A stretch of 35,408 nucleotides of DNA from Limisphaerales bacterium (lineage in GTDB: Bacteria > Verrucomicrobiota > Verrucomicrobiia > Limisphaerales > JADLHS01). The notes beneath the pieces were generated by a model. That model saw only the letters and a list, made by a program, of their open reading frames with translations. It made no database searches and was not told the origin of the DNA. The translations under genes and the position numbers were made by a program. Shown here piece after piece: positions 28,524 to 32,980 of this stretch. The stretch spans positions 1 to 35,408 of the forward strand of contig JADLHS010000527.1 of assembly GCA_020848635.1 (NCBI GenBank). The letters are read 5' to 3'. The first letter of the stretch is position 1. Every line of letters begins with the position of its first letter.

Positions 28524-29009
28524 TCATAGCCGCATGATTTTTTCCAGCAAGGTAGTGGTGGATTTGCCCGGCACAAACGGAAGAAAGACAATTCGTCCCC
28601 CGTCCTGCTCCACCGCCCGGCGCTCATCTTGATTGACGGTTTCCAACGTATAGTCGCCCCCCTTGACATAGATGTCGGGCCGGGCCGCAGCGAGAAAGCG
28701 GGTGGCGGTCTTTTCAGCAAAGATGCAAACGCCGTCCACACTTTGCAGCGCAGCGACCACGGCGGCGCGATCGGCTTCCGGGTTCACCGGGCGGGTGTCA
28801 CCTTTCAACTGCCGCACCGAAACGTCGCCATTCAGGCCCAAGAGGAGCGCGTCGCCCTGATTGCGGGCGGATTCCAGATAAGTAACGTGGCCAAGGTGAA
28901 GCAGATCAAAGCAGCCGTTGGTGACGACCAGCCGCTGGCCGCTGGCACGCCGGGCCGCACGCCACGCCGGCAAATCTTCCCATGCCACAATTTTGTCCTG
29001 GAAACGCAT
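28524..29009 (-). CDS. hldE2/rfaE2: D-glycero-beta-D-manno-heptose-1-phosphate adenylyltransferase
   Basis: A 161-residue nucleotidyltransferase equivalent to the C-terminal half of E. coli HldE. The catalytic motif TNGCFDLLHLGHVTYL is at about residues 30-45, followed by GLNGDVSVRQLKGDTRPVN and PDIYVKGGDYT. It activates heptose-1-phosphate with ATP to ADP-heptose for lipopolysaccharide core or S-layer glycan. The kinase half is a separate gene elsewhere, as in many non-enterobacterial genomes. ATG 29009 starts at a natural N-terminus. It lies between ubiE and the glycosyltransferase on the same strand. Confidence 0.92.
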   Translation of the reverse strand: MRFQDKIVAWEDLPAWRAARRASGQRLVVTNGCFDLLHLGHVTYLESARNQGDALLLGLNGDVSVRQLKGDTRPVNPEADRAAVVAALQSVDGVCIFAEKTATRFLAAARPDIYVKGGDYTLETVNQDERRAVEQDGGRIVFLPFVPGKSTTTLLEKIMRL

Positions 29010-29089
29010 GCGATAATTCTGACCGAAGCGGTTTCGCCTTGGCAACGAGATTCAAGACCGGGAGGGAGATTTCCGCAGCGACCACAAAG

Positions 29090-29812
29090 TTACCTGGCCT
29101 TCTCCCCGTAATTGATGCTCATCGCGCCGCCAAGGAAATTTTCGACGCGCACCTGGATCAATCCCAGTTCCCGCATCCGGGCCGCCACGCCCCGCTGCGC
29201 CGGGTAATGCCGGAGTGATTCCAAAATATAGGCGTAGGCGCTGGCATTCCGGCAAACCACCAGACCCAGCAAGGGCACAAACAAGCGCAGGTAGCTGAAA
29301 TAAACCGCGCGCCACAGGCGGTTGTCCGGCTTGCCAAAGTCCAGCACGAGTAGGCGCGCGCCGGGTTTGGCGACCCGCACCATTTCGCTCAAACCAGTCT
29401 CCCAGCTCGCCAGGTTGCGCAAACCATAGCCCACCGTAACGATGTCAAAACCGGTGTCAGCAGGAAACGGAAGGCACATCGCATCCCCCTGAATGAACTG
29501 GGGGCCAACCCCACCGGCGCCCGCCGCCCGCCGGGTGGCAACCGCGAGCATCGGCGCACTGAAGTCCAGCCCGATGACTTCCGCTCCGCCGGCCGCCAGC
29601 ACGAAGGCTAGGTCGCCGGTACCACAGCAAATGTCCAGGGCGCGGTCGCCAGGCCTTGGGGCGGCGCAAGCCACCAAGCGCTGCTTCCAGCGGCGGTGCA
29701 GCCCCAGACTCTGCAGATCGTTGATAAAATCGTAGCGCGGAGCGATGGCGGCGAACAATTCGTTCACCTTGCCGGCGCGTTCGGCGCCCGGACTAAAAAA
29801 AGCGTTTCCCAT
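29090..29812 (-). CDS. ubiE/menG: demethylmenaquinone/ubiquinone methyltransferase
   Basis: A 240-residue class I SAM-dependent methyltransferase of the UbiE/MenG family, methylating the quinone ring in menaquinone (or ubiquinone) synthesis. Signature segments are VNELFAAIAPRYDFINDLQSLGLHRRWK, split here across residues 16-44, the SAM site LDICCGTGDLAF near 58-69, and GYGLRNLASWETGLSEM, the second UbiE signature. ATG 29812 is preferred; open codons upstream are unlike the family. Verrucomicrobia usually use menaquinone, so menG is more likely. It is transcribed away from the receiver gene across a 167-bp spacer. Confidence 0.94.
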   Translation of the reverse strand: MGNAFFSPGAERAGKVNELFAAIAPRYDFINDLQSLGLHRRWKQRLVACAAPRPGDRALDICCGTGDLAFVLAAGGAEVIGLDFSAPMLAVATRRAAGAGGVGPQFIQGDAMCLPFPADTGFDIVTVGYGLRNLASWETGLSEMVRVAKPGARLLVLDFGKPDNRLWRAVYFSYLRLFVPLLGLVVCRNASAYAYILESLRHYPAQRGVAARMRELGLIQVRVENFLGGAMSINYGEKAR

Positions 29813-29979
29813 GTTGGACAAAGCCGTCCCGATATTGAGCAGCCGGCGCGGGCACGGCGAATCAATTCGTCCGCCAAGGCCGAGCACAAACCGGCAATAC
29901 CGGCTGGGCCGGCAAGGGAATGGCGCTTGGTTTGATTGTTGCTAAAGAAACAGCACCCGCGAGGCGGGAATAAAACATT

Positions 29980-30384
29980 ATGAACAAAAAGAAGATTTTG
30001 GTGGTAGATGACGACGCCGTGGTCATCAAATCGCTATCCATCAAACTCATGGCCAATGGATTTGCGGTTGTCAGCGCTCGGGACGGCGCCGACGCCGTCA
30101 ATGCCGTTCGCACCCAAAAACCAGATCTCATCCTGCTCGACATCACTTTTCCGACGGACGTGAGCAGCGTGGCGTGGGATGGCTTTCTCATCATGGAGTG
30201 GTTAAAACGTTTGGACGAAGCGGCCACGATTCCGATTATTGTGATTACGGGCGGTGATCGCGAGAAATACGAGCCGCGGGCAAAAGCCGCCGGGGCCACG
30301 GCCTTCTTTCACAAGCCAATCAAGCATGATGAGCTTTGCGAGCTGATTCGCCGGACGCTGAATCTGGAACCCGCGACCGCCTGA
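29980..30384 (+). CDS. stand-alone response-regulator receiver
   Basis: A 134-residue CheY-like protein with no output domain. The acidic triad DDD is at residues 10-12, the phospho-acceptor is Asp54 (LILLDITFP), the switch Thr is Thr90 (IVITGG) and Lys112 is in FFHKPIKH. An extended loop follows Asp54 (TDVSSVAWDG). It would be phosphorylated by a histidine kinase or phosphotransfer protein. The next gene, 20 bp later, encodes a small HDxxN protein, so the two likely form a phosphorelay module. The divergent spacer at 29813-29979 must hold promoters for this gene and for ubiE. Confidence 0.93.
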   Translation: MNKKKILVVDDDAVVIKSLSIKLMANGFAVVSARDGADAVNAVRTQKPDLILLDITFPTDVSSVAWDGFLIMEWLKRLDEAATIPIIVITGGDREKYEPRAKAAGATAFFHKPIKHDELCELIRRTLNLEPATA

Positions 30385-30404
30385 CGCACCAACGCAAACC
30401 GCGT

Positions 30405-30674
30405 ATGCCCACCGCGAACCTGAACCTGCCCAGCCAACCGGTGACCCTGGCGGTCAGCCAGATTGAACAGTTGAACCAGCAACTCTCCAACCTGCGGCAC
30501 GACATTAACAATCATCTTTCACTCATGCTGGCGGCGGCCGAAGTCATGCGCCGCAAGCCCGAAGCGGCCGAACGCATGTCCGCGACGTTTGAAGACCAGC
30601 CGCGCAAAGTCACCGCCGCAATGCTCAAGTTTTCGGCGGAGTTCGAAAAAAGCCTCGCGATCAAGAAAAGCTGA
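30405..30674 (+). CDS. small helical HDxxN protein, possible phosphotransfer partner
   Basis: An 89-residue protein with a long helix containing LRHDINNHLSLML, where His32-Asp33 and Asn36 match the HDxxN H-box of Spo0B-type and LytS/AgrC-type dimerisation domains. A second helix runs from about residue 54 to 88, giving the helical-hairpin size of a DHp domain without any ATPase domain. This arrangement, next to a lone receiver, suggests a Spo0B-like phosphotransferase. ATG 30405 is preferred to an in-frame ATG 30336 that would overlap the receiver gene. Family assignment is by motif only. Confidence 0.6.
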   Translation: MPTANLNLPSQPVTLAVSQIEQLNQQLSNLRHDINNHLSLMLAAAEVMRRKPEAAERMSATFEDQPRKVTAAMLKFSAEFEKSLAIKKS

Positions 30675-30799: not shown

Positions 30800-31390
30800 A
30801 TGAAATGCCCACTTGAGCCAAAGCCGCTTGTGCGCAAGATGGCTTTTGCCATCACCGTCTCTGTGTTGCTCCATAGCCTGCCTGCCGCCCTCGCCCAACC
30901 CAATCCTAAAGCGCCCAACCGTCGCCCGCCGCCGGCGGGAGCTGAGCGGCAAGGCGGGCAACCCCAACCGGGCGTCCCGGAGGGTCGGGCCTTGCCCGTG
31001 CTGGAACGGGTGTTGACCGAGGAACAACGCGAAACCCTGCACGCCGCGATGGCAGCACAGCGCGCCCCGATGCGCAGTCTGGAGGCAAAGGTCCGCGCCG
31101 CCCGCCAGGCACTCATGCGGGCCTCGCTCAACGATAAGTTTGATGAAGAGGCGGTGCGCGCCAAGGCATTGGAAGTTGGCAAGCTGGACGTCGAGTTGGC
31201 CGTACTGCGGGCCAAAGCATTATCCCAGGTGCAACCACCGCTTTCCATGGAACAGCTCGAGAAAATTGTAAATCCACTGCCGCCGCGGGAAATGGATGGC
31301 CCGCCCGATGGCCCGCGCCCCCGGCGGGATAATCGTCTCCCGCCCGCCCCCCGCGACCGGCCAGTCGCACCGAAACCTGATTCGCAATAG
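30800..31390 (+). CDS. secreted LTxxQ-like (Spy/CpxP-type) protein
   Basis: A 196-residue protein with a signal peptide (about 12-32, ending ALAQ), a Pro/Arg-rich linker, and a helical middle. LTEEQRETLHAAMAAQ begins the helices at about residue 72, which continue through RAARQALMRASLNDKF, and a Pro/Arg tail follows. The LTxxQ motif and the helix pattern resemble Spy/CpxP/ZraP periplasmic chaperones or sensors. Its stop (31390) is one base before ATG 31392 of the ECF sigma gene. It heads the operon and may be a regulated target or a ligand-sensing component. Confidence 0.65.
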   Translation: MKCPLEPKPLVRKMAFAITVSVLLHSLPAALAQPNPKAPNRRPPPAGAERQGGQPQPGVPEGRALPVLERVLTEEQRETLHAAMAAQRAPMRSLEAKVRAARQALMRASLNDKFDEEAVRAKALEVGKLDVELAVLRAKALSQVQPPLSMEQLEKIVNPLPPREMDGPPDGPRPRRDNRLPPAPRDRPVAPKPDSQ

Positions 31391-31391
31391 A

Positions 31392-32057
31392 ATGGTTTCA
31401 GATGTGATCTCGGCGCCAACGCTTCCGGGAGCGGCGGCTTTTGCGATTGAGCCCAAGAATCGCTCTGGCATAGTCGCACGCATGGAACCGACCGAGGCGG
31501 AGTTGATCGTGGCCGCTGTCAAAGGCGACGCCGCGAGCTTCGAGCCGTTGGTGCAAAAATACTCGCCCCGCGTCTTCGCCACGGCCCGGCGCTACGCCCG
31601 GTTGGAACGCGAGGTCGAGGACATCGCCCAGGAAATCTGGGTCAAGGCCTTTCAGAAACTAGGCAGCTTCCGCGGGGAAGCGCCGTTCGAGCATTGGCTG
31701 ATGCGCCTGGCGGTACGGACGTGTTACGATTTTCTCCGCGCCCACCAACGCAATCGCGAGTCCGCCTTTTCCGAGCTTTCCGAACCCGAGGATGACTGGC
31801 TGGAGCGATTCGCCGCCGCGCCCGAATCCGTTAATGAACACGCGGAGGCCGCGAAGTTGCTCGTCGAGCGGGTTCTCGCGCAGATGGCCCCCGCCAGCCG
31901 GCTCATCATCACGCTCCTGGAAATTGAGGATCGCAGCGTGAAGGAGATCGCCGGACTCACCGGCTGGTCCGTGCCCCTCGTCAAAGTCCGGGCTTTCCGC
32001 GCCCGCGCCGAAATGCGAAAAATCCTCACCCGCATTGCCCAGGACAAGTATTTGTAA
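31392..32057 (+). CDS. ECF-family RNA polymerase sigma factor
   Basis: Sigma-2 is seen in FEPLVQKYSPRVFATARRYA, then VEDIAQEIWVKAFQKLGSF and APFEHWLMRLAVRTCYDFLR. Sigma-4 is in MAPASRLIITLLEIEDRSVKEIAGLTGWS, shown here in parts, with VPLVKVRAFRARAEMRK as the recognition helix. ATG 31392 (221 residues) is one base after the preceding stop, favouring coupling; ATG 31482 (191 residues) gives the standard ECF length and is a strong alternative. Downstream lie a one-helix protein and an LTxxQ protein, which fits an anti-sigma/sensor pair. It would direct transcription of an envelope-stress or metal-response regulon. Confidence 0.93.
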   Translation: MVSDVISAPTLPGAAAFAIEPKNRSGIVARMEPTEAELIVAAVKGDAASFEPLVQKYSPRVFATARRYARLEREVEDIAQEIWVKAFQKLGSFRGEAPFEHWLMRLAVRTCYDFLRAHQRNRESAFSELSEPEDDWLERFAAAPESVNEHAEAAKLLVERVLAQMAPASRLIITLLEIEDRSVKEIAGLTGWSVPLVKVRAFRARAEMRKILTRIAQDKYL

Positions 32058-32096
32058 CCCCCAAAACCCCGTGTCCGTCTGGCATAATTGTTCACG

Positions 32097-32402
32097 ATGA
32101 ACCTAGAACCTCTGCAACAAAAACTGCTCGCCGCCGCCCGCGCCCACCCGCCGGCGGATCGCGTGCCGTACGCGTTCGAGCAGCGCATCCGCGCCCACCT
32201 TAGCACGTTGCCGCCGGTTGACCTCGCCGCGCTTTGGGCCCGGGCGCTGTGGCGCGCGGCGGTTACTTGTGTTGCCGTCACCCTTTTGCTCGCCACTTGG
32301 TCGTTCGTCCAGTCCCCCGCGTCCTCCACGACCGAAGACCTTTCCCAGCAGTTTGAACAAACCCTGCTCGCGGCGGCGGATCAACTGGAGGAAACCTGGT
32401 GA
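32097..32402 (+). CDS. short one-helix membrane protein, putative anti-sigma factor
   Basis: This 101-residue protein has a cytoplasmic-type N-terminal half (about 1-50), one membrane helix (about 51-68, AAVTCVAVTLLLATWSFV), and a short outer acidic segment. There is no zinc-binding H-x3-C-x2-C anti-sigma motif. Its size, topology and place directly after the ECF gene match CnrY-like anti-sigma factors. ATG 32097 is preferred to TTG 32088. It overlaps the next gene by four bases (GTGA). Function inferred from context. Confidence 0.68.
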   Translation: MNLEPLQQKLLAAARAHPPADRVPYAFEQRIRAHLSTLPPVDLAALWARALWRAAVTCVAVTLLLATWSFVQSPASSTTEDLSQQFEQTLLAAADQLEETW

Positions 32403-32980
32403 ACGCCTGGAAAATTGTCTGCGCAACGCTGGTCATATTCATCACCGGGATCATCACCGGCGCTTCCTTGGTCCGATTCGCCGAACGCGGACAGAAACCC
32501 TGGCAACGGATGCCCAAGACTGTGGCCAGCCTTCCGTTACCACCGAATCATCCGGCGTTGCCCAACGACCCACGCCCCGCGAATGCCGCCTCGTCCGGCT
32601 CTCCGCTGCTCAACCGGGAATTTGTTCAAATCCTCGCCCGCCAGTTGCGCCTCACGCCCGAGCAACGCGAGCGGATTGGCCAAATCATGGCAGACGGGCA
32701 GGAGCGAATGCGCGAAATACGCGCCAGCCTCGAGCCGCAAACTCGCAAACAGTTGTCGGAAACACGGGAGCAAATTCACGCCCTCCTAACCCCGGAACAA
32801 CGCCCCCAGTTTGAGCAGTTGGTGAAACAGCGGGCCGGGCGCCGGAGCGAGGGGTCGGGCCAACCGGAACGCGAACGCCGTTTTCGCGATCAACGCACTC
32901 CGCTCACGCCGCGCGACACCCTTCCGGGCGGTGAATCGGGCGCGGCCCCATTGCCCCGCAACCCGGCCCCGCCGCAGTAA
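32399..32980 (+). CDS. membrane-anchored LTxxQ-domain protein, CnrX-like sensor candidate
   Basis: A 193-residue protein starting at GTG 32399, overlapping the previous stop. An N-terminal helix (about 5-24) anchors it, a Pro-rich linker follows, and the periplasmic part has two LTxxQ motifs: LTPEQRERIGQIMADGQ near residue 84 and LLTPEQRPQFEQLV near 128. The tail is Arg/Pro-rich. Spy/CpxP/CnrX-type domains have just such paired helices. Very few His residues remain, so the nickel/cobalt site of CnrX is not conserved. It could bind misfolded protein or another ligand and control the anti-sigma protein. Confidence 0.75.
   Translation: MNAWKIVCATLVIFITGIITGASLVRFAERGQKPWQRMPKTVASLPLPPNHPALPNDPRPANAASSGSPLLNREFVQILARQLRLTPEQRERIGQIMADGQERMREIRASLEPQTRKQLSETREQIHALLTPEQRPQFEQLVKQRAGRRSEGSGQPERERRFRDQRTPLTPRDTLPGGESGAAPLPRNPAPPQ

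Follow-up and report, generated by a model that had tools for sequence, protein, structure and literature searches.

The stretch of DNA analysed here (the window) comprises the 35,408 nucleotides of contig JADLHS010000527.1 from a Limisphaerales bacterium of the phylum Verrucomicrobiota. The genes of interest are listed in Table 1. A gene for a ubiE/COQ5-type methyltransferase is divergent from a gene for a lone receiver, which is followed on the same strand, after a gap of 20 bp, by a gene for a small protein designated HD. Next comes an ECF sigma factor operon that spans 30800-32980. A sequence-only reading of this DNA had reported an HDxxN protein encoded 20 bp past a complete receiver with Asp54, Thr90 and Lys112, and both open reading frames were confirmed.

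Table 1. Genes between positions 28524 and 32980 of the window
Feature	Coordinates	Strand	Evidence and remarks
Cytidylyltransferase-like gene (which we take to be rfaE)	28524..29045	-	PF01467, 61.9 bits (cut-off 21); adjoins ubiE
ubiE/COQ5-type methyltransferase	29090..29887	-	PF01209, 194.8 bits (cut-off 20.1); divergent from receiver
Lone receiver (REC), single-domain response regulator, 134 aa	29980..30384	+	PF00072, E 1.6e-21, 77 bits (cut-off 30.2)
HD, 89-aa stand-alone DHp-like protein	30405..30674	+	RHDINN motif at 31-36
lt1, Metal_resist/LTXXQ (CpxP-like) protein	30800..31390	+	PF13801, 45.4 bits (cut-off 29.2); PF07813, 28.6 bits (cut-off 24.3)
ECF sigma factor, 191 aa	31482..32057	+	TIGR02937, 89.0 bits (cut-off 42.9); PF04542
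101-aa protein with one hydrophobic stretch (by eye), possible anti-sigma	32097..32402	+	Position and size
lt2, LTXXQ (Spy/CpxP/CnrX-like) protein	32399..32980	+	PF07813, 31.2 bits (cut-off 24.3); Metal_resist below cut-off

The length of 191 aa given for the ECF sigma factor corresponds to the start that is conserved in relatives; the open frame itself opens earlier, at 31296. Between 29800 and 33100 there was no appreciable excess of promoter-like sites (1 versus 0.5 in shuffled sequences) or terminator-like sites (6 versus 5.1), and nothing convincing was found as an upstream motif common to the HD, ECF and receiver genes. Elsewhere in the window, between 20443 and 25144, a match to the CstA carbon-starvation protein (PF02554) is followed by a match to a glucuronyl esterase (PF22244, E 3.6e-33).

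The receiver is a single-domain response regulator, with a complete domain, the active-site residues D10, D11, D54, T90 and K112 in its translation, and no output domain. Among 18 aligned relatives D10, D11, D54 and K112 are invariant and position 90 is T or S. The predicted structure has the usual fold (pLDDT 86.4). Relative to PleD it contains a 6-residue insertion after Pro58, between beta3 and alpha3 and beside the active site, and one guess is that this loop recognises HD. Scoring the best 14 candidates per genome placed the receiver subfamily, at E<=1e-20, in 72 of the 293 genomes sampled from the order. ubiE divergently adjoins the receiver in 16 of the 19 fetched loci in which the receiver lies away from HD (L120-L138), and two receivers stand in tandem in three loci near HD (L040, L041, L044).

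The residues around His32 of HD are LRHDINNHLSLMLAAAEVM, with the motif R31-H32-D33-I34-N35-N36. The protein matches Pfam HisKA (PF00512; E 4e-4, 20.7 bits) below the curated cut-off of 26.9 and SPOB_a (E 3e-3) likewise below its cut-off; an HPt profile is absent among the three Pfam families matched at E<=1. Across 61 members of the HD family, HisKA is matched by 52 and SPOB_a by 49 at E<=0.1, the best HisKA match having an E of 1.3e-6. NCBIfam matches are weak and scattered, and the best-shared of them, CreC, is found in 13/61 members (best E 0.0025). A comparison of the HD profile with solved chains returned a de novo designed protein first (E 0.0094) and the DHp part of a blue-light kinase second (E 0.015).

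An AlphaFold2 model built from the 61-row alignment predicts two helices, 17-50 and 52-83, with a mean pLDDT of 92.5. It thus agrees with the earlier suggestion, made from the sequence, that the 89-residue protein has the size of a helix hairpin. The two helices take up all 89 aa, and there is no second domain; HD is a HisKA-like protein with no HATPase domain. Foldseek returned nothing for the model at E<=0.001; the top row was HK853-RR468 (E 0.15), and CnrX and others came next. With VIA-align, Z values between 7 and 9 were obtained for a large number of unrelated hairpins as well as designed bundles; CpxA (7.7) and DesK (7.4) fall in this range. Fold comparison was rejected as proof of DHp identity because unrelated hairpins score similarly and no Foldseek match reached E<=0.001. 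The model is compatible with a DHp hairpin, although the fold match does not single DHp out.

HD is present as a single copy in its own genome, where the next matches have E values of 0.63 and 1.06. Homologues occur in all 12 genomes of the window's family, its own included. A search with the window protein identified them in 146 of the 293 genomes of the order, which were sampled evenly from a larger group, at E<=1e-3. The 61-row profile matched 158 of these genomes at the same threshold and 143 were kept; the 15 dropped had best E values of 5e-6 to 1e-3, and those with places listed sit in kinase-size open frames. When the search was widened to 288 genomes of the phylum, four had HD at E<=1e-8, all in one class and the window's own among them. 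HD was also found in named relatives, 'Verrucomicrobia bacterium' and 'Pedosphaera sp.', and there was no match to plasmids. HD of the window is short, and every curated family it matches scores below its cut-off, as might be expected of a spurious open reading frame or a decaying kinase remnant. Such an origin is very improbable given the uniform length and strong conservation over 143/293 genomes of the order, and HD is a real conserved family rather than a chance frame. Searches of open-licence PMC papers turned up none on a DHp-only family of this kind, nor on the size, operon and distribution of HD. Other proteins of this sort may escape notice, given how short HD is and that its scores lie under curated cut-offs.

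Loci were fetched from 102 of the 143 genomes; the choice was non-random, with the best scores taken first and weaker ones after. The sequence-only reading had staked its proposal on conservation of His32 and on a helical hairpin or dimer; the hairpin is predicted as described above, and the phospho-acceptor His is kept in all 102 loci. Arg precedes it in 101/102 and Asn stands at +3 in 97/102; the His with its Arg and Asn surroundings is the most constant part of HD. The +1 position is occupied by D (79 loci), N (15), E (4), S (2), A (1) or K (1), and the +4 position by N (77) or G (25). Eighteen of the 25 loci with Gly belong to f43, a family in which the receiver is frequent. In HisKA kinases, as stated in PMC3510030, the +1 acid is required for kinase activity and not for phosphatase activity, and a +4 Thr or Asn is required for phosphatase activity and not for kinase activity. 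Because the His is held while the +1 acid and the +4 Asn are relaxed, HD looks, as far as residues can indicate, most like a phosphotransfer protein.

The same positions bear on what else HD might do. It might mainly strip phosphate from the receiver, as a phosphatase or a sink that damps signalling, and the phosphatase residue of HisKA proteins (PMC3510030) is indeed present at +4 in 77/102 loci. However, Gly replaces it in the other 25, mostly in the very family where the receiver is common, and a pure phosphatase does not explain a His kept everywhere. We regard this role as distinctly unlikely. HD might also be one half of a split histidine kinase, in which the ATPase domain of another kinase would phosphorylate HD, and HD then the receiver. 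Of the 102 loci, 83 retain the +1 acid that kinase chemistry requires, 63 HATPase_c matches occur in the genome of the window, and PMC3591291 describes an EnvZ split into two active halves and counts 1556 of 42417 HisKA proteins without HATPase. Against this stand the 19 loci without the acid. Further, none of the 63 HATPase_c matches is tied to HD (the two shortest frames are 153 and 177 aa), and kinase matches lie within 2.5 kb of HD in only 7/102 loci (L056, L064, L079, L092, L106, L107, L164), and across the 102 no kinase or ATPase gene recurs next to HD. A split kinase is therefore an improbable description of the family.

Among the seven, L079 has a NarL-like regulator and a kinase adjoining HD. 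At L106 and L107, which have no ECF gene, HD is flanked on one side by a hybrid kinase and on the other by receivers and a kinase in a convergent cluster. In another order (L181 and L184; 3463-5819 in L184), a divergent HD is followed by a PhoB-like regulator and a kinase and then by genes that by eye resemble phoU and ppk. A uvrA-like gene, again by eye, is divergent from HD in L184-L186.

Profiles of the window genes were run over the fetched loci. The most frequent neighbour of HD is an ECF sigma gene, located no more than 2.5 kb downstream in the same orientation in 70/102 loci; some of the 32 loci with no ECF gene just downstream sit on contigs that end early. The usual order, found in the window as well, is HD, an optional CpxP-like gene, ECF, the 101-aa protein and an LTXXQ protein. 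Where no gene intervenes, the HD-ECF spacing in family f43 ranges from overlap to about 60 bp. The 101-aa protein matched no Pfam or NCBIfam family and is present in 242 of the 293 genomes of the order, far beyond HD. Its position and size make it a possible anti-sigma factor. Among the ECF operons fetched with no adjoining HD, the ECF gene, the 101-aa protein and the LTXXQ protein occur together in 19/19, of which 17 come from HD-free genomes and two (L146, L147) from genomes with HD on another contig. Since HD-free genomes keep the ECF operon, HD is inessential to it and is an added rather than a core part.

A receiver gene lies directly upstream of HD (within 200 bp, same strand) in 12/102 loci from two families. 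Eight are from family f1 (the window, L040, L041, L042, L044, L046, L051 and L139) and four from f43 (L100-L103). In three more f43 loci (L069, L104, L105) ubiE and the receiver are 3.6-5.5 kb upstream of HD. L046 has Ala at +1 and no ECF operon within the fetched 6 kb. The arrangement in which ubiE diverges from a receiver-HD-ECF series is thus shared by two families and is most simply read as ancestral and split later; separate assembly in the two families is also conceivable. Genomes with the receiver subfamily have HD more often (63/72) than the others (80/221; Fisher 6e-15, kinship ignored), and 9/72 lack it.

Asp is found at +1 in 55/58 receiver genomes and in 24/44 others, and by family in 12/13 with the receiver versus 9/22 (p 0.004). 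On a tree of the ECF and 101-aa proteins from 67 loci, the observed difference is reached in 20 of 737 coupling-free simulations. Of four independent contrasting pairs, two point each way. The +1 Asp was set aside as proof of receiver coupling on these two results, and tree-aware support for a functional receiver-HD link is weak. The window-type receiver was likewise rejected as the one fixed partner of HD. The His is still kept in the 44 HD genomes, out of 102, that lack such a receiver at E<=1e-20, so this receiver is not the only partner of HD. The link of HD homologues to receiver genes that had been anticipated from the sequence is thus real and limited in extent. The two-gene phosphotransfer module proposed there fares similarly: the receiver does adjoin HD, but the larger unit was missed. 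HD precedes an ECF operon in 70/102 loci, the window included, so the locus is not simply a two-gene module.

That ECF adjacency (70/102) is far above receiver adjacency (12/102), and that hairpins such as that of HD are structurally common, would also fit a protein that acts in the ECF system by binding alone, to sigma, anti-sigma or receiver, with no phosphate involved and with receiver proximity incidental. Binding alone offers no account of why the His and its Arg and Asn surroundings are the most constant part of HD, and the His is kept as well in the 32 loci with no ECF gene just downstream, some of which are on contigs that end early. This too appears unlikely.

A weak relative from Mucilaginibacter (L007) pointed the way to another, separate set of DHp-only proteins. 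Of 151 genomes drawn from the order of Mucilaginibacter, 47 match at E<=1e-9, 44 of them in open frames of 65-83 aa and three in kinase-size frames. The Sphingobacteriales proteins are 64-76 aa long (L187, L189-L196, L200-L229). The best 30 loci were examined; they include the nine seed-profile genomes, and in one pair the proteins are identical. In 30/30 the gene directly upstream on the same strand encodes a response regulator of 468-499 aa, with a coordinate difference of -10 to +6, and the motif HD..NQLSN is invariant in all 30 mini-proteins. The one regulator scanned contains PF00072, PF00158 and PF02954 and is of the NtrC type. A profile comparison of this set with the HD family of the window (probability 95.6, E 1e-8, 52 columns) may reflect only shared DHp ancestry. 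The strict pairing lends weight to the general idea of a regulator-coupled mini-protein and does not extend to the particular receiver of the window.

Several known systems resemble HD in part. Spo0B of Bacillus is a dimeric hairpin phosphotransferase that acts between two receivers and has an HD-type box; SPOB_a matches HD below cut-off. Spo0B also has a second, ATPase-like C-terminal domain. HD, by contrast, is 89 aa with no second domain, and has other neighbours in another lineage. In the PhyT/PhyK pathways, which end on an ECF sigma factor, phosphate passes from a single-domain receiver (SdrG, MrrA) to a DHp His. The nearest functional parallels to HD would be, by analogy, the Pak-SdrG-PhyT-PhyR relay, described as ending on the ECF sigma factor EcfG (PMC5898713), and the MrrA-PhyK-PhyR relay (PMC5964349). 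However, ChpT and PhyT/PhyK retain a degenerate ATPase domain, described for ChpT as a degenerate Bergerat fold (PMC3433190), and PhyT also a membrane anchor, whereas HD is the hairpin alone and its 89 aa contain no such Bergerat-fold domain. Unlike in the PhyT/PhyK pathways, the operon of HD contains no gene for a PhyR-like regulator. HD is not a member of the Spo0B, ChpT or PhyT families.

Split histidine kinases likewise carry a HisKA-like region on its own polypeptide (PMC3591291). HD differs in having no identified ATPase partner and in forming a conserved, order-specific family. Since HisKA proteins lacking HATPase have been counted before, such proteins are already known as a kind. The window also resembles envelope systems of the CnrYXH/CpxP type, which bring together an ECF sigma factor, a small membrane protein and an LTXXQ/Metal_resist protein; it differs in the addition of HD and sometimes a receiver, and the 101-aa protein is an anti-sigma factor by inference only. 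The main new element is the association of HD with the ECF operon.

With the gene order, the conserved family, the invariant His, the predicted hairpin and the intact receiver active site in view, we favour HD as a minimal histidine phosphotransferase, similar in action to Spo0B, ChpT and PhyT, with the upstream receiver as likeliest partner and the ECF operon as output. We place the probability of this reading slightly above one half (about 0.55). The hairpin of HD would pair into a four-helix bundle with no ATPase domain of its own. A phosphoryl group would pass between His32 and the conserved Asp of a receiver, in the lineage of the window most likely the one encoded just upstream. That receiver would itself be loaded by one or more separate cellular histidine kinases, and the receiver-HD pair would feed into the operon of the ECF sigma factor and its CpxP/CnrX-like envelope proteins.

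Coupling of two-component systems to ECF sigma factors is known mainly from the alphaproteobacterial general stress response. A bolder and rather doubtful extension is that a relay was invented outside Alphaproteobacteria, running from a lone receiver, distinguished by its beta3-alpha3 insertion, through a DHp-only dimer to an ECF sigma factor or membrane anti-sigma factor with no PhyR-like sigma mimic. Were this so, DHp-only mini-proteins would be a general, overlooked class of signalling proteins, as the Sphingobacteriales set, with a regulator coupled to the mini-protein in 30/30 loci, also suggests. If the phosphotransferase reading of HD holds, a protein consisting of a DHp hairpin alone would connect the flow of phosphate through two-component systems in Verrucomicrobia with an ECF sigma factor. 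The receiver and HD would also make a small two-protein model for studying how receivers are recognised by a DHp surface on its own.
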